Below, piece by piece: positions 13,268-21,604 of a DNA stretch of 64,000 nucleotides (positions are counted from its first letter, which is position 1; each line of letters opens with the position of its first letter). Location: positions 496,001 to 560,000 of the forward strand of contig NZ_CP012069.2 of the NCBI RefSeq assembly GCF_001189515.2, written 5' to 3'. A program made the position numbers and the translations under genes. Below the pieces are notes generated by a model. That model did no database searches. It worked only from the letters and a program-made list of their open reading frames with translations, and was not told the origin of the DNA. Source of the DNA: Olsenella sp. oral taxon 807. GTDB lineage: Bacteria; Actinomycetota; Coriobacteriia; Coriobacteriales; Atopobiaceae.

Positions 13268-16200
13268 ATGGCATTCGTTCACCTTCACAACCACTCCGAC
13301 TTCTCCATCCTCGACGGAGCGGCGCGCATCCCTGATATCGTGAGGCGCGCCGTCGAGCTCAAGATGCCCGCCGTCGCCCTCACGGATCACGGCTACCTCT
13401 TTGGCGTTCCCAACCTCGACCTAGAGTGCCGCAAGTACAACGAGGCCGCCTGCGCCATGAAGCAGTGGGAGCATGACCTGGAGTGCTTCGAGAAGGGCTG
13501 GGAGCTTGAGGAGCCCGCGCCGGACGCGAAGGACGCAGAGGCCTGCGATCGCGCCCACGCTCAGTGGGAGAGCGATCGCAGGGTCTGGGAGGCGACGCAC
13601 GATCTCGCTGCCGTCAGGGAGAACCGGCCACCCCTCAAGGTGAAGCCCATCTTTGGCTGCGAGTGCTACTTCATCAAGGATGAGTGTATCGAGCGGGGCA
13701 CCAAGCAGCGCCGCTTCCACCTGATCCTGCTTGCCAAGAGCGGGCGCGGCTACGCGAACCTCCTCAGATGCATGTCCAAGGCCGCCGGTCACGAGATGTA
13801 TTACTACAAGCCCCGCGTGACGCTCGACATGCTCAGGGAGTACCACGAGGGCCTCATCTGCCAGAGCGCCTGCGTCCAGGGCATCATCTCGCAGTGCGTG
13901 CTCGACGGCGACTTCGACGGCGCGCGCGAGTGGGCGAGCAGCTTCCGGTCAATCTTTGGCGAGGACTTCTACATCGAGATCCAAGACCATGCCCAGGAGT
14001 ACCGGGGTGGCTGGAACGATCGCAAGCTCGCCGAACACCTCGTCGGGATGGCCCGTGAGCTGAACATCAAGGTCGTCGCCACCAATGACTTCCACTACCT
14101 CGTCCGCGAGGACGCCCCTACCCAGGATGTTCTGTCGTGCATCGGCAAGGCGACGACCCTCTCGGACGAGACTCGCCAGCATATGGTGGGCTCAGAGTTC
14201 TACATGAAGAGTGAGCAGGAGATGCGCGAGCTCTTCTCCTGGGTACCCGAGGCCTGCGACAACACCCTCGAGATCGCGTCCAAGTGTGACTTCGAGCTGG
14301 ACTGGTCGAGCATGTACCTGCCCGAGTTCCCAGGGCTCAAGCCCGGCGAGACCGCCGAGGAGCGCTTTCGCGTCGAGTGCGAGCGCGGCCTTGCCAAGCG
14401 CTACGGCGCCGACTGGAGAGACGTCGTCATCGGTGGCATCAACGTCCAGGAACGCTTTGAGTACGAGTACCGGATCATCTGCGACAAGGGCTTTGCCAAC
14501 TACTTCCTCATCGTCCAGGACTACGTCCAGTGGGCCAAGGACAGGGGCATTGGCGTGGGGCCGGGGCGTGGCTCGGCGGCAGGTGCCATCGTCGCCTACG
14601 CCATGAACATCACGAGCTTTGACCCGCTTGAGAATGGCCTCATGTTCGAGCGCTTCCTCTCGCCCCAGCGCTCGGAGATGCCCGACATAGACATGGACTT
14701 CGACGACGAGCACCTCCAGGACGTCCTTACCCACGTCCGCGAGCTCTACGGCGAGGATCACGTCTGCAAGGTCATCACCTACTCCACGATCAAGGCCAAG
14801 CAGGCCATCAATGACGCGGCGCGCGTGCTCGGCCAGCCCGTCTATGTGGGTCAGAGGCTCTCAAAGATGCTCTCCGGGGACCCGGGCCTCGAGCTTGCGA
14901 ACGCCCTGCACAAGAACGAGCGGAAGCCCGACCAGTATTCCCCCGACTTCGAGCAGGCCTACAAGGACGACGAGGTCGCCCACGGCATCATTGACGCGGC
15001 CCTCTCGATAGAGGGCATGACCCGCGGCGAGGGCGTCCATGCCTGCGCGACGCTCATCACTCCCACTCCCGTCACCGACCACGTGCCCACGAAGCTCGAC
15101 ACCAAGGGCAACGTCACGATCACCCAGTACGAGGGTCACTCGGTTGCGGACATGGGCCTACTCAAGATGGACTTCTTGGGCCTGCGCACCCTCACGGTCA
15201 TCAGCAAGGCGCTCGAGAACATCCAGGCGTCCCATCCTGACCTCACAGACCTCGACGCCCTGCCCGATAGCGTCAGGGCCTGCGTCAAGCCAGGTGCCAC
15301 CAGCCTGGACCTCGATGTCGACAAGGTTGACTTCACCGATCCCAAGATCTACGAGCTTCTGGGCTCGGGCCGCACCGCCGGTGTCTTTCAGGTCGAGTCG
15401 CCGGGCATGACGGCCACGATCAAGAACATGCAGCCCAAGGAGTACAAGCAGATAGTCGCCTTGATCGCCCTCTACCGCCCTGGCCCCTTGGGCTCGGGCA
15501 TGGTCACGAGCTACATCAATCGCATGAACGGCAGGGAGGACGTCGTCTTCTACGACGACCGCCTCTCCGAGATCCTGGACGAGACCTATGGCACCATCGT
15601 CTACCAGGAGCAGGTCATGCAGATCTCGGTCAAGATGAGCGGCTTCTCGGCTGGTGAGTCCGACTCACGCATCAGGAAGCCCGTGGCGAAGAAGAAGGTC
15701 AAGCTCCTCACCTCGACCGTCTTTCACTGGGACAACGGCAAGGACGAGACGACCTACGACCACTGGATGAACGGTGCCGTCGACAACGGCTACACCCGGG
15801 AGGTCGCCCAGCGGATCTGGGACGACGTCTTGGAGTTTGCCTCCTATGCCTTCAACAAGTCGCATTCGGCCGGCTACGCCATACTCGTCATGCAGACGGC
15901 TTGGCTCAAGGCCCACTTCCCCCTCGAGTACATGGCGTCGGTGCTCACGTCCTACATGGGGAAGACCGACAAGATCGTCCACTACGTCACGTCCTGCCGC
16001 CGCGAGGGCATCGACGTCCTGCCGCCCGACATCAACGAGTCGGGCAGGGACTTCACGGCGACCTCGGAGGGCGTCCGCTTTGGATTCGCGGGCATCCGCG
16101 GCGTGGGTGAGGGTGTGGCCGAGGCCATCATGTCCGAGCGCGAGGCGAGAGGTCCCTTCAGGGACCTCCATGACTTCGTGGACCGCGTGGACGCAGGGCA

Positions 16201-17173
16201 GGCCAACCGTCGCGTCGTCGAGGCCCTCATCAAGGCGGGCGCCTTCGATTCGACGGGCTACCCAAGAAGGCAGCTCATGACGTTCACCGACAAGAGCGAT
16301 CCCGCTAACATCGTCGATGCGGCGACGAAGCGCCAGAAGGACCGTGCGGCTGGTCAGAGCTCGCTTTTCGACCTCTTTGGCGCGGTGGAGGGCTCGGGCT
16401 TTGACGATCAGGTGCCAGACCCTGACCCCGCAGCCGAGTGGGACCGCCACACGAAGCTCGCGCAGGAGCATGAGGTCCTGGGACTCTACGTCTCGGACCA
16501 CCCGCTGGCCCCCTTCGAGTACGCGCTCTCGAAGGCCCGTGACTACACGGTCCTGGAGCTTTCCGAGTCAGACGAGAGCGTCGACCCCGAGAGCGGCGCG
16601 ACGATCACGCGCTTCAAGGTGCCCGAGGGGCAGTCCATCAGGCTTGCCGGCATGGTGCCTACAGGTGGCGTCGCCAAGAAGGTCACCAAGAAGGGTGACC
16701 AGATGGCCGTCGTCACACTTGAGGACATGGAGGGCGAGATATCCGTCGTCGTCTTTCCCAAGACCTACAAGGAGTGCGCGGCAGTGCTTGAGGGCGAGGT
16801 GGACAGTCAGACGGGAGAGCGTGTCGGGGACGTCTTCATCAGGGTCACGGGCAAGCTCGAGCGTGGCGATCGTGGTGATCAGGTGATCGCCAGCTCGGTC
16901 GAGGCGATGGAGCTCTCCGAGAGGACCAACAGGCCCAAGGTGGTAGAGGTCTTCGTGAGTCCGCAGCGGCTGCTCTCCCAGGGATGCCTCGAGACGTTGC
17001 AGTCCATCCTTGTCCGCTACGACGGCTTGGACAAGGTCGCGCTCCTCGTCGAGAGCGCGACCGGGGACTTGGTGCGCCTGGCGCTTCCCACGAGGGTGGA
17101 CGCCCGCAACAACGTGCTACTCGCCGAGGTTAAGGATCTCGTGGAGGGGGAGGGTCACGTCCGGCTCGTCTAG
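13268..17173 (+). CDS. dnaE: DNA polymerase III alpha subunit
   Basis: A 1301-aa replicative polymerase. Seen: the PHP domain opening FVHLHNHSDFSILDGAARI, the palm catalytic motif PDIDMDFDDEH (about residues 471-481), the GPGRGSAAG motif, YQEQVMQIS, tandem helix-hairpin-helix region, and a C-terminal OB fold (LAGMVPTGGVAKKVTKKGDQ, MAVVTLEDMEGEISVVVF). The PHP domain carries a charged insertion of about 60 residues (roughly 58-120, ECRKYNEAACAMKQWEH onward) before the KPIFGCECYF strand; in other DnaE proteins this link is short. It makes the protein longer than the usual 1150-1200 residues. It stands alone with no obvious operon partner. Confidence 0.96.
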   Translation: MAFVHLHNHSDFSILDGAARIPDIVRRAVELKMPAVALTDHGYLFGVPNLDLECRKYNEAACAMKQWEHDLECFEKGWELEEPAPDAKDAEACDRAHAQWESDRRVWEATHDLAAVRENRPPLKVKPIFGCECYFIKDECIERGTKQRRFHLILLAKSGRGYANLLRCMSKAAGHEMYYYKPRVTLDMLREYHEGLICQSACVQGIISQCVLDGDFDGAREWASSFRSIFGEDFYIEIQDHAQEYRGGWNDRKLAEHLVGMARELNIKVVATNDFHYLVREDAPTQDVLSCIGKATTLSDETRQHMVGSEFYMKSEQEMRELFSWVPEACDNTLEIASKCDFELDWSSMYLPEFPGLKPGETAEERFRVECERGLAKRYGADWRDVVIGGINVQERFEYEYRIICDKGFANYFLIVQDYVQWAKDRGIGVGPGRGSAAGAIVAYAMNITSFDPLENGLMFERFLSPQRSEMPDIDMDFDDEHLQDVLTHVRELYGEDHVCKVITYSTIKAKQAINDAARVLGQPVYVGQRLSKMLSGDPGLELANALHKNERKPDQYSPDFEQAYKDDEVAHGIIDAALSIEGMTRGEGVHACATLITPTPVTDHVPTKLDTKGNVTITQYEGHSVADMGLLKMDFLGLRTLTVISKALENIQASHPDLTDLDALPDSVRACVKPGATSLDLDVDKVDFTDPKIYELLGSGRTAGVFQVESPGMTATIKNMQPKEYKQIVALIALYRPGPLGSGMVTSYINRMNGREDVVFYDDRLSEILDETYGTIVYQEQVMQISVKMSGFSAGESDSRIRKPVAKKKVKLLTSTVFHWDNGKDETTYDHWMNGAVDNGYTREVAQRIWDDVLEFASYAFNKSHSAGYAILVMQTAWLKAHFPLEYMASVLTSYMGKTDKIVHYVTSCRREGIDVLPPDINESGRDFTATSEGVRFGFAGIRGVGEGVAEAIMSEREARGPFRDLHDFVDRVDAGQANRRVVEALIKAGAFDSTGYPRRQLMTFTDKSDPANIVDAATKRQKDRAAGQSSLFDLFGAVEGSGFDDQVPDPDPAAEWDRHTKLAQEHEVLGLYVSDHPLAPFEYALSKARDYTVLELSESDESVDPESGATITRFKVPEGQSIRLAGMVPTGGVAKKVTKKGDQMAVVTLEDMEGEISVVVFPKTYKECAAVLEGEVDSQTGERVGDVFIRVTGKLERGDRGDQVIASSVEAMELSERTNRPKVVEVFVSPQRLLSQGCLETLQSILVRYDGLDKVALLVESATGDLVRLALPTRVDARNNVLLAEVKDLVEGEGHVRLV

Positions 17174-17313: not shown

Positions 17314-19188
17314 ATGAGAATTGGCATTGCACAGATAGACAGCCGACCGGGTGACTTCGATAAGACCTGCGAGCGTATGCTGGCCTACTCTAAGGTAGCG
17401 GCCGAGCGCGACGTGGACCTCCTTATCTTTCCGTCCTTGGCCCTCACGGGAATCGAGGGCGTGCGCCAGGCAGACCAGCTGCCCTTCCTGCACGACCTGC
17501 TCGCATGCCTCGGGTCGCTTGCAGAAGGCATCGCCTGTCCTTGCCTCATGGCAATCCTTGTGAGCTACGATGATGTGGTTGCCATGGAGGCGATCCTGCT
17601 CAAGGATGGCAAGGTCATGCTGATCAATCTGGCAGGAAGCTTCTTTGGGGCGGCGATGGAGGCGGCTCCCCCGCAGGGATCGCTGCCCGAGCAGGGAGTT
17701 CCCATCCTCAGCCTCGGGGGGGAGCAGCTTGCCGTAGCCCTCACCTTTGACGACCTTGATCGTCTTCGGAGCGGACAATCGGGTGCAACCGTCATCGTCT
17801 ACCTCGACGACCAGGGATTTCATGTCGATGATCCCTCGACGGCGCTTGGCGCTGGCCTCACGGAGGGACGATTCTCTGAGGACGCCAAGGCGAGCGGCGC
17901 ATGGTTCGTAGGCGTGGGTGCCCTGGGACTCTATGGGGAATCCGTGTATTGTGGGTCGAGCTTCGTGCTCTCGCCGGCAGGCGAACTTGTGGCGGCCGCC
18001 CCCGACTTCGAGGAGGGCTTTGTGAGCTGCGAGGTGGGTGCGGACGTTTCGGTTGCGAAGGACGCGGTCCTCTCGCCCGAGGTTTACGATCAGACGTTCC
18101 AGCTTTGGCAGGCCCTTACGCTGGGGGTTCGCGATATCGTAGAGAAGCACAGGTGCGTCGAGCATGCGGTCCTACCCCTTGACGGCACCCTGAGCTCGGA
18201 GCTTTTGGCCATGCTTGCATCCGATGCCTTGGGACCGACCAAGGTGCACGCCCTGATCGCGACTGACGATGCCGAGGGGGCCGCTCGCGCACGGGAGCTT
18301 GCGGGCAGGCTTCGTCTCGATTTGCGTGAGGCACATGCCACGCTCTGGGACGCGGCGGGCGGCTCTGTGCTGCTGGGCCGCGCGAGGGCCGCCGCCCAGC
18401 TTGCCGTCTGGGCCGATGAGTTGGGTGCTTGCGTGCTCTCGCCAAGGGACAAGACCGATCTTGCCCTCGGCCTTTGGGCTGACGTTCCCAGCTCTGCCGC
18501 TGCCATGCCCTTGGGGGACGTCTATCGCTCCGACATCGTCGACCTCGCCCGCCTGCGTAACACCATCTCGCCCATTATGGGGTCCGTCGCGCTCTCTAGG
18601 CTCGACCTTCCCACTGTGCCAGGCATCACACTGCCCTCCGGTTCGGTGGAGGAGTGCGTGTATGCAGTAGACTCAATCCTTCTCGAGCATGTGGAGGGGC
18701 GCCACGGTGTCAAGGACGTCGTCGAGGTTACGGGGCGCGATCCGAACCTCGTGAGGGAGGTCTTGCTGAGGCTCAATGACACGGAGGCGACCCGCGTCGG
18801 CGTCCCCACCGTGATCGTCACGAGCTCTGCCCCGCTCACAAACGCAACCCAACCGCTGGGGCTTGTGTGGCGTGCGGATGGCTCCAGAGAGGAGCAGGAG
18901 CTGCAGCGTACCCTTCTGCAGCTTGCGGAGAAGGTCCTCTCGATCCCCGACAACCTTCGGCCTGCCGCCCTTGAGCCGAAGGCGGAGGCGCATGCGCAGG
19001 CAGATGAGGCGGTGCGCCAGCTGAAAGATGCGCTCTCCTTTCTCAACGACTTCACGCAAGGAGGTGGCATGGACATCAAGGACAGCGAGAGCCTTCAGGA
19101 CTGGCTCAAGTCCCTCCGCTCGGGAGGTAAGCCGGACAAGCCCTTTGGCAACATGCTCATCTGGGGATCTCCTTTTTCGGAGAATTGA
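17314..19188 (+). CDS. NadE-like protein with degenerate glutaminase and synthetase active sites
   Basis: A 624-aa protein with the fold order of glutamine-dependent NAD+ synthetase: nitrilase-like domain (about 1-255) then adenine nucleotide hydrolase-like domain (about 262-560). The key motifs are changed. The nitrilase Glu motif FPELALTG reads FPSLALTG (Ser41). The catalytic Cys motif (ICEDLW) reads LTFDDLD near 143-149. The PP-loop SGGxDS reads PLDGTLSSE (288-296). Other conserved stretches persist (LWQALTLGVRDIV, MLASDALGP, LSPRDKTDLALG, MPLGDVYRSDIVDLARL), so homology is clear. The frame is intact with normal codon bias, which argues for a retained non-catalytic role. Start at 17314 with GGGGGAA upstream; ruvC follows. 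Confidence 0.8.
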   Translation: MRIGIAQIDSRPGDFDKTCERMLAYSKVAAERDVDLLIFPSLALTGIEGVRQADQLPFLHDLLACLGSLAEGIACPCLMAILVSYDDVVAMEAILLKDGKVMLINLAGSFFGAAMEAAPPQGSLPEQGVPILSLGGEQLAVALTFDDLDRLRSGQSGATVIVYLDDQGFHVDDPSTALGAGLTEGRFSEDAKASGAWFVGVGALGLYGESVYCGSSFVLSPAGELVAAAPDFEEGFVSCEVGADVSVAKDAVLSPEVYDQTFQLWQALTLGVRDIVEKHRCVEHAVLPLDGTLSSELLAMLASDALGPTKVHALIATDDAEGAARARELAGRLRLDLREAHATLWDAAGGSVLLGRARAAAQLAVWADELGACVLSPRDKTDLALGLWADVPSSAAAMPLGDVYRSDIVDLARLRNTISPIMGSVALSRLDLPTVPGITLPSGSVEECVYAVDSILLEHVEGRHGVKDVVEVTGRDPNLVREVLLRLNDTEATRVGVPTVIVTSSAPLTNATQPLGLVWRADGSREEQELQRTLLQLAEKVLSIPDNLRPAALEPKAEAHAQADEAVRQLKDALSFLNDFTQGGGMDIKDSESLQDWLKSLRSGGKPDKPFGNMLIWGSPFSEN

Positions 19189-19257: not shown

Positions 19258-19911
19258 ATGATCATCCTTGGCATTGACCCTGGCTTGGCAAACACCGGCT
19301 GGGGTGTAATCGAGACGCGAGGATCTGTGTGCCGAACACGCGCCTATGGGTGCGTGAGCAGCGGATCAAGAGATTCGCTCGATCGGCGCCTGGGTCGTAT
19401 CTTTGAGGAGGTCTCCAAGATAGTGCAAGACTACAGTCCTGCGCAGCTTGCCATAGAGAAGGTGTTCTTTGGGGAGAACTCACGCTCCGCCATCGCGACG
19501 GCCCAGGCGAGGGGGGCTGCGATCGTCGCCTGCGCCGAGGCTGGCATGGAGCTGGGGGAGTATACGCCGATGCAGGTGAAGCAGGCTGTCGTGGGCACGG
19601 GCGGGGCGGATAAGCGGCAGGTCATCTATATGGTGCGCAGCATCCTTGCCCTTGAGCGCGACCCCAGGCCCGACCACTGCGCCGATGCGCTTGCCGTTGC
19701 CATCTGCCACGCCAACCTCTCTCGGACGAGGCGCATCACCCAGGACGCCGCCTCGGTCCAGATACAAGAGCAGGAGTGGGCCCAGAGGAGCTACGATCGC
19801 GCTCTTGCGCGCGAGGCGACTGCGGCGGCGAGCGCCGCCCACCTCCCCCAGGGCAAGCGGGACCGCCGGGCACTTACCCATGCGCGCCAGAGCAGGAGGA
19901 ACAGCCGATGA
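19258..19911 (+). CDS. ruvC: Holliday junction endonuclease RuvC
   Basis: A 217-aa resolvase that cleaves four-way junctions. Catalytic acidic residues are visible: Asp7 in IDPGLANTGWGV, Glu67 in AIEKVFF, Asp139 and Asp143 in DHCADALA. The tail after about residue 155 is longer and more basic than in E. coli. The ATG at 19258 has GAGGAG upstream and is preferred over the frame extension to 19228. The last codons overlap the ruvA start (ATGA). First gene of ruvCAB. Confidence 0.95.
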   Translation: MIILGIDPGLANTGWGVIETRGSVCRTRAYGCVSSGSRDSLDRRLGRIFEEVSKIVQDYSPAQLAIEKVFFGENSRSAIATAQARGAAIVACAEAGMELGEYTPMQVKQAVVGTGGADKRQVIYMVRSILALERDPRPDHCADALAVAICHANLSRTRRITQDAASVQIQEQEWAQRSYDRALAREATAAASAAHLPQGKRDRRALTHARQSRRNSR

Positions 19912-20540
19912 TCGCTCAGCTTACGGGTTCTGTGGTCGAACGGTTTTCCGATCAGGTCGTCTTGGACGTGGGAGGCGTGGGCTTTCTTCTGGGCGTCTCC
20001 GCCACGACTGCGGCGCAGCTTCCGGAGCAGGGCAGTTCTGATGTCACGCTCTACACGCGCCTGCTTCTGAGGGAGAGCGCGATGGAGCTCTATGGCTTTT
20101 CCTCCCGCGACGAGCGTGCGGTCTTCGATAGGCTGGTTGCGGTCTCGGGCGTGGGTCCCAAGCTCGCGCTCGCGATCCTCTCTGTCTTCACGCCCGCTAC
20201 CCTCGCGACGATTGTCAGGCTCAAGGACGCGAGCCGTCTGTCCCAGGTCCCGGGTGTCGGCAGGAAGAAGGTGCAGCACCTACTCGTCGAGCTTCAGGAT
20301 GTGTTTGCCCAGGATGGCGAGCTGAGGGACCTTGTGGGTGCGGACGAGCCGTCGCCAGCCGCGCCAGGTCCGTCCGAGACGGACGAGTCCATCGTGCGGG
20401 AGGCAAGCTCGGCGCTTCTCTCCATGGGCTTCACGTCCCAAGAGATCGAACGTGCCCTCGAGGGCCGTACGCGTGCTGATGCAGATACGCTCGAGAAGAC
20501 CCTCTCCTATGCGCTCAGGCGCTTAGGGGGTGGTTCGTGA
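19908..20540 (+). CDS. ruvA: Holliday junction branch migration protein RuvA
   Basis: A 210-aa protein that binds Holliday junctions and loads RuvB. N-terminal OB fold [26 protein letters not shown], then helix-hairpin-helix motifs ([13 protein letters not shown] and [13 protein letters not shown]), a flexible acidic linker and a C-terminal three-helix domain that contacts RuvB ([17 protein letters not shown]). Start ATG overlaps the ruvC stop, with AGGAGGA upstream; its stop shares a base with the ruvB ATG. Tight coupling indicates one transcript. Confidence 0.96.
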
Positions 20541-21604
20541 TGTGGGAGGCTCCCGACAAGGACCTCTTTGCCGATGACGCGTGCCTCGAGGCGAGGGGCC
20601 GCAGCGTGACCGGCGAGCTTACGGCAGACGACATCGACGTCGAGCGCAGCCTGAGGCCCCGGACCTTGGAGGAGTACTGCGGCCAGGAGCGCGTCCGTGA
20701 CAACCTCCGCGTGCTCATCGTGGCTGCCAAGGACAGGGGGGAGGTCCTCGATCACGTGCTCTTCTCAGGACCTCCCGGCCTCGGGAAGACGACCCTCGCA
20801 GGCGTGGTCGCCAACGAGATGGGCGCCCGCCTCAAGACCAGCTCCGGTCCCGCGATCGCCCGCACGGGAGACCTTGCCGCCATACTCACGAACCTCGAGG
20901 AGGGCGACGTCCTCTTTGTTGACGAGATCCATCGCCTCAACCATCAGGTCGAGGAGGTGCTCTATCCGGCGATGGAGGACTTCGCCCTCGACATCGTCAT
21001 CGGGAAGGGTCCGGCGGCCCGGTCTATCAGGCTCGATCTGCCCCGCTTCACGCTCGTTGGCGCAACCACGCGCACCGGACTTCTCACGGGGCCGTTGCGT
21101 GACCGCTTTGGCATCTCGTACCGCCTCGACTACTATACGACAGACGAGCTCACCCGCATTGTCCTGCGCTCTGCCAGACTGCTTGGCGTGGTCATTGACG
21201 ATCGGGGTGCGGCGGAGATAGCCAGCAGGTCACGTGGGACTCCTCGGCTTGCGAATCGCCTGCTCAAGCGTGTTCGTGACTATGCTCAGGTCAAGGCAGA
21301 CGGTACGATAGACTGGGACGTCGCCGCCCAGGCGCTCTCGTTCTTCGAAATCGACGAGCTGGGCCTTGACTGGATGGACACCAAGATCCTAGGGACCCTC
21401 ACCCAGACCTTCCGGGGTCGTCCCGTGGGTCTGACAACCATCTCCTCCTCCGTAGGGGAGGACCCGTCCACCATCGAGGACGTCTATGAGCCCTATCTGC
21501 TCCAGCGAGGGCTCATCGTGCGCACCCCGCAGGGGAGGCAGGCGACAGAGCTTGCCTTCGAGCACCTGGGGATCACCCCTCCTGCGGGCAAGACGATGGG
21601 GTAG
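20540..21604 (+). CDS. ruvB: Holliday junction branch migration helicase RuvB
   Basis: A 354-aa AAA+ motor. Walker [10 protein letters not shown] (about 76-84), Walker [12 protein letters not shown], sensor/arginine finger region [18 protein letters not shown], and a C-terminal winged helix ([21 protein letters not shown]). The ATG at 20540 overlaps the ruvA TGA by one base; a GTG at 20537 would add one residue. Length and motifs are normal for the family. Confidence 0.97.

Follow-up and report, generated by a model that had tools for sequence, protein, structure and literature searches.

Introduction

The closest described relatives of the protein considered here are the glutamine-dependent NAD synthetases of the NadE2-Gln type (type-2; dimeric; profile PRK13981; structures 3n05, 5kha and 4f4h). 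The window protein (the window being the whole 64,000-nucleotide stretch of Olsenella sp. oral taxon 807 DNA that was analyzed) has the same nitrilase-to-synthetase domain order and the same fold over residues 1–523. In contrast to these enzymes, it is without the catalytic Glu, Lys and Cys of the nitrilase domain and the SGGxDS, NKSE, ENLQAR and STLYGD motifs of the synthetase domain, scores far below the curated threshold of their profile, and bears a C-terminal extension of about 100 residues ending in FSxN. With the NadE1-Gln type (type-1; octameric; PRK02628; Mycobacterium tuberculosis 3dla) it has the two-domain composition in common while belonging to a different subfamily. Some NadE2-Gln enzymes, namely those of Azospirillum, Herbaspirillum and Synechocystis, are subject to NAD+ feedback and are regulated by PII, which acts as a dissociable subunit (PMC7196632). 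They offer a precedent for a non-catalytic regulatory layer on this enzyme type, although they are active enzymes, whereas the genome of the window lacks PII.

The remaining NadE2 proteins of the Coriobacteriales belong to the same protein lineage. Families of the order are designated here by handles: f1, the family of the window, is Atopobiaceae by its named loci, with Olsenella massiliensis a close relative, and f10 is presumably Coriobacteriaceae (Collinsella and kin). The versions from f3 to f9 have a dead nitrilase domain, and an FSxN end is seen in f3 with similar ends in f5; they differ from the window protein in having intact synthetase motifs and in coming from genomes devoid, where tested, of a type-1 NadE scoring above the cut-off. 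Pseudoenzymes as such are well known. Our search of the open-access literature recovered no NAD synthetase that has both domains dead and persists in two bacterial families, and the main text of a study of NAD-synthetase evolution mentions neither Coriobacteriia nor Atopobium (PMC3376133).

The gene and the fold of its product

The gene and the regions of its product are as follows:

17314..19188, + strand: NadE2-type coding sequence (624 aa plus stop), very probably of a pseudoenzyme (open reading frame, Pfam/NCBIfam profiles, structure match)
17314..18048, + strand: nitrilase-like domain, residues 1–245, catalytic Glu, Lys and Cys all replaced (Pfam, alignment, model)
18088..18801, + strand: NAD-synthetase-like domain, residues 259–496, ATP/Mg motifs lost (alignment, model)
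18889..19185, + strand: C-terminal extension past the enzyme fold, residues 526–624, made up of a short helix and of linkers that are mostly disordered and little conserved

The reading frame contains no internal stop. Both domains were recovered by Pfam (CN_hydrolase, 3e-10; NAD_synthase, 2e-5), and the closest NCBIfam profile is PRK13981 (E 6.5e-24; 84 bits against a curated cut-off of 479), with only 12 bits for the type-1 profile PRK02628. An AlphaFold2 model, which like our other AlphaFold2 runs was of a monomer with a shallow alignment (30–32 rows), has a pLDDT of 82 and a pTM of 0.80. Among solved structures it is matched best by 3n05, the NAD synthetase of Streptomyces avermitilis (27% identity and a Z of 31.6, with an rmsd of 3.0 across 474 residues, spanning model residues 1–523), and the top rows of structure searches with our models held no family other than NAD synthetases and nitrilases. 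Thus, the protein presents a nitrilase-fold domain followed by a NadE-fold domain, the order of the NadE2-Gln type.

Loss of both active sites

Alignment with intact relatives from the Anaerosomatales, Streptomyces, Legionella and others placed the former catalytic positions:

17434..17436, + strand: nitrilase glutamate position, now Ser41 (in FPSLALTG), from alignment with intact relatives
17743..17745, + strand: nitrilase nucleophile cysteine position, now Thr144 (in ALTFDDLDR), from alignment with intact relatives
18181..18198, + strand: former PP-loop SGGxDS, now DGTLSS (residues 290–295), from alignment
18448..18456, + strand: DKT (residues 379–381) at the NKSE position, with Lys380 invariant in alignment A1
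18508..18534, + strand: PLGDVYRSD loop (residues 399–407), with Pro399, Asp402 and Tyr404 invariant in alignment A1

The column of the nitrilase lysine, where the local alignment is weak, holds an Ala in the window protein. In the synthetase domain SGGxDS has given way to D290-GTLSS and NKSE to DKTD, and the MPxxYSS, ENLQAR and YSTLYGD motifs are gone. Identical sites are lost in all 30 Atopobiaceae orthologues aligned, and none of the nitrilase Glu, Lys and Cys is kept in any aligned Atopobiaceae or f10 row; the substitute residues differ between species, as fits a site freed of catalytic constraint. At the former PP-loop most Atopobiaceae display DG(T/S)LxS. With the catalytic residues lost group-wide, and with the fold and frame under selection (alignments, structure match and the dN/dS values given below), the window protein is very probably a pseudoenzyme dead in both catalytic sites. 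The dead-lineage motifs DG(T/S)LxS, DKTxLAL and GDVYRSD are themselves conserved, as might be expected if an activity had been retained or gained with a rebuilt active site; however, the replacements of the Glu, Lys and Cys vary from species to species, the Asp position of the PP-loop tolerates many residues, and f10 has EGDLPS in place of DGTLSS. On these sequence comparisons we regard a rebuilt enzyme as very unlikely.

Sixteen columns are invariant in the alignment of 30 divergent orthologues, and these include Lys380, Pro399, Asp402, Tyr404, Phe621, Ser622 and Asn624. The invariant residues of the old nucleotide site thus amount to one lysine and the P..D.Y loop, which may point to a retained ligand or to mere structure. 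Two proteins of the Atopobiaceae genus g14 (L285 of genome G071 and L115 of G017) diverge strongly, with DNSLNA and DTSVSA as their PP-loops, yet keep an FSEN end.

A canonical synthetase in the same genome

The closed 3.21-Mb genome of the window encodes elsewhere a 643-aa type-1 synthetase of the M. tuberculosis type (in L001; 830 bits with PRK02628), in which the Glu, Lys, Cys and SGGLDS are intact. The same profile scores above its cut-off in 35 of the 37 genomes from the family of the window, the remaining two being incomplete and holding fragments, and in all 40 f10 genomes; it does so in none of the tested f2–f9 genomes.

On another view the protein is a metabolite sensor, one that still takes up a pyridine or adenine dinucleotide in its old NaAD/ATP pocket and regulates NAD metabolism, perhaps by way of the type-1 NadE, the tail being only an accessory. 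In f10 the protein and type-1 NadE always occur together, an allosteric site for NAD+ is known from active type-2 enzymes (PMC7196632), and the four invariant residues of the old site persist in 30 divergent orthologues. However, the pyrophosphate-binding PP-loop and the YSS, ENLQAR and STLYGD motifs of the nucleotide site are gone, and the co-occurrence is equally expected from plain replacement by the type-1 enzyme. We consider such a sensor unlikely, if the most credible of the competing readings.

Conservation and selection

Some homologue is present in 372 of the 395 Coriobacteriales genomes, and almost every Atopobiaceae genome searched has the dead form, which also occurs in f10. Among 12 f10 species the dN/dS is ~0.07 (0.046 in the nitrilase-like part and 0.056 in the synthetase-like part). 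It is 0.17 (0.06–0.39) over 47 close Atopobiaceae pairs, for which dS is often high, making the f10 value the better estimate. The values for ruvC (0.015) and ruvB (0.011) are lower, indicating looser purifying selection on the pseudoenzyme. This faster evolution, along with a broken frame in two assemblies, is what could be expected of a decaying pseudogene or a hitchhiker next to essential genes. Against this, the dN/dS is well below 1, two families keep the gene intact in almost every genome, it survives across a deep tree, and the C-terminus is invariant; we give decay almost no credence.

An earlier note, made from the letters of the window, had proposed a two-domain glutamine-dependent NAD synthetase architecture with the nitrilase Glu and Cys and the SGGxDS loop replaced, in an intact frame kept by selection. 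The Pfam domains and the 3n05 match, the alignments, and the uninterrupted frame with its dN/dS values and wide distribution uphold each of these points. It had also advised tracing the altered residues among relatives, and the losses indeed recur across all aligned Atopobiaceae orthologues. It had likewise advised looking for a second, canonical nadE, the lack of which would have counted against its reading; the 643-aa type-1 copy fills that role. The NAD or adenylate sensing that it suggested may be a role of the protein, though one that would have to do without the PP-loop.

Gene neighborhood

The gene lies between dnaE and ruvC, as the earlier note had stated:

13268..17173, + strand: dnaE, the upstream neighbor
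19258..19911, + strand: ruvC, the downstream neighbor on the same strand, 69 bp past the stop
19908..21604, + strand: ruvA (19908–20540) and ruvB (20537–21604)

A search around the gene gave no sigma-70-like promoter. The order from the pseudoenzyme gene through ruvC and ruvA to ruvB is kept in Atopobiaceae and f10, and in all 56 loci measured the gene is co-directional with ruvC, most with 59–90 bp between them. The conserved synteny hints at a replication or recombination component acting with DnaE or RuvABC, and the link to recombination drawn in the earlier note stands to this extent. One single-contig, 99% complete genome of genus g14 (G072) points the same way, with the pseudoenzyme, ruvC and ruvB all undetectable where congeners have the pseudoenzyme and ruvC; however, this joint absence may reflect one block deletion or an assembly loss. 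The link falters elsewhere: dnaE is upstream in most Atopobiaceae loci, but this adjacency is limited to that family and often spans hundreds of bases, and neither dnaE nor ruvC lies within ~3 kb of the FSxN-tailed f3 homologue with an intact synthetase (genome G038). A role in replication or recombination is improbable in our estimate.

Stepwise loss across the Coriobacteriales

The homologues can be arranged by the sites that they keep. In the Anaerosomatales, a related order of the same class, the nitrilase and synthetase sites are both intact. In families f3–f9, and in a single f2 member, the synthetase motifs remain but the nitrilase Glu, Lys and Cys are missing, whereas Atopobiaceae and f10 have lost both sites and carry the type-1 enzyme. 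In our main tree, beside which a larger quick tree was also built, the dead proteins of f1 and f10 form one clade (100/100) nested with f3 and f7 (98/99).

Several individual genomes show variations on this pattern. Four sampled f2 members (L274, L277, L278 and L279) have a short synthetase only, the dead nitrilase domain apparently having been deleted, and in the f2 genome G295 (L254) that domain is still there. In the f3 genome G046 a protein that reaches the contig end (L262) has a degenerate PP-loop, AGDLDS, which makes it a further instance of a lost synthetase site, and a separate single-domain NadE is present. In the f5 genome G367 the protein (L273) has lost the synthetase site independently (KGDLAS, DKTA), with DKT recurring in parallel, and has kept an FMSN tail; no other NadE was detected in this incomplete genome.

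These patterns would be accommodated by a series of losses. In an ancestor of the Coriobacteriales the glutaminase site would have disappeared, free ammonia serving for NAD synthesis from then on; on the way to Atopobiaceae and f10 the protein would have gained a second, tail-borne job while still a synthetase; and the presence of a type-1 NadE would have rendered synthetase catalysis dispensable and open to decay. The proposed order, with the type-1 enzyme arriving before the synthetase site was lost, is a correlation on essentially one branch, f1 plus f10.

The FSxN tail

The earlier note missed the extra C-terminal region (residues 526–624) and with it the most constrained element of the protein:

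19174..19185, + strand: invariant C-terminal tetrapeptide FSEN-COOH, consensus FSxN (alignment, family-wide counts)

The non-redundant set from Atopobiaceae and f10 comprises 111 proteins; FSxN-COOH closes 109 of them, and in the other two FSDN or FSNN followed by a stop is kept in a shifted frame. Mean column identity is 0.90 over the last four residues and 0.20 over the 30 residues before the W..P stretch. In the tail, synonymous codons replace one another (TTT/TTC; TCN/AGC) and each of the three stops occurs, indicating that selection acts on the protein. A nucleic-acid signal was accordingly rejected, the more so as f3 has the tail without a downstream ruvC. In a scan of the genome of the window with TCN serine codons, no other FS(TCN)xN-stop ended an open reading frame of at least 60 aa; one other FS(TCN)xN with a true stop was seen, not at the end of such a frame.

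Intact outgroup proteins terminate at the enzyme fold with no extension. The f3 protein L250 (genome G038), in which SGGIDS, NKSE and ENLQAR are intact and which is the only PF02540 synthetase detected in its genome, terminates in FSKN. Hence, the tail predates the loss of the synthetase site. A desulfoferrodoxin gene directly upstream of the homologue in f10 and f3 (L097:4446-4811 and L100:4828-5229), absent from this position in the window, supports orthology. The f5 proteins (L253–L271), whose synthetase motifs are also intact, have FLAN, FLDN, ISAN, ILEN or similar at their ends, with the same terminal Asn. They fall outside the f1+f10/f3/f7 clade, and a single clade of all tailed proteins (f5, f3, f1 and f10) was weakly rejected (p-AU 0.03). 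The f5 tails may thus have arisen by convergence, or may be an ancestral trait that other families have lost.

Docking of the tail on its own body was rejected, the tail having a pLDDT below 50 in both AlphaFold2 monomer models; this predicted disorder is at most a faint hint of docking in trans.

Proposed function

Kept by nearly every species though dead, the protein very probably does a job other than making NAD. The reading that we favor, with moderate confidence, is that the pseudoenzyme is kept as an adaptor, docking or sensor protein whose FSxN tail binds a partner, catalysis having been lost after the type-1 NadE was present. The body of the protein, folded and probably still dimeric, would present two flexible tethers whose FSxN ends dock in a pocket of a partner protein, giving it the role of an adaptor or regulatory subunit, and a ligand that switches it may still sit at the lysine and P..D.Y loop that stay invariant in the old nucleotide site. 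A receptor pocket for a free C-terminus would account for the constancy of the last residues alone, next to a linker free to change in both sequence and length.

Two further candidates for its function were discarded. PII was rejected as a general partner, its gene being absent from the genome of the window (G000) and from at least seven other pseudoenzyme-keeping genomes (no PF00543 match in G001, G027, G031, G112, G190, G183 and G217); it is present in the congeners G003 and G004. An anti-phage defense protein was rejected as well, with PADLOC matches in 0 families.

Implications

Atopobiaceae commonly inhabit the guts and mouths of vertebrates. In most of their genomes a naive NAD synthase call on this gene would be wrong, and annotations should be read with this in mind. 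More tentatively, and at somewhat under even confidence, FSxN-COOH may represent an undescribed docking system of the Coriobacteriales, in which the tail role was gained by an enzyme and the protein was kept only for that role after the type-1 takeover. The four-residue end would then provide a handle for finding the partner, and the ordered series of living intermediates makes the route from enzyme via moonlighting enzyme to pseudoenzyme directly testable.
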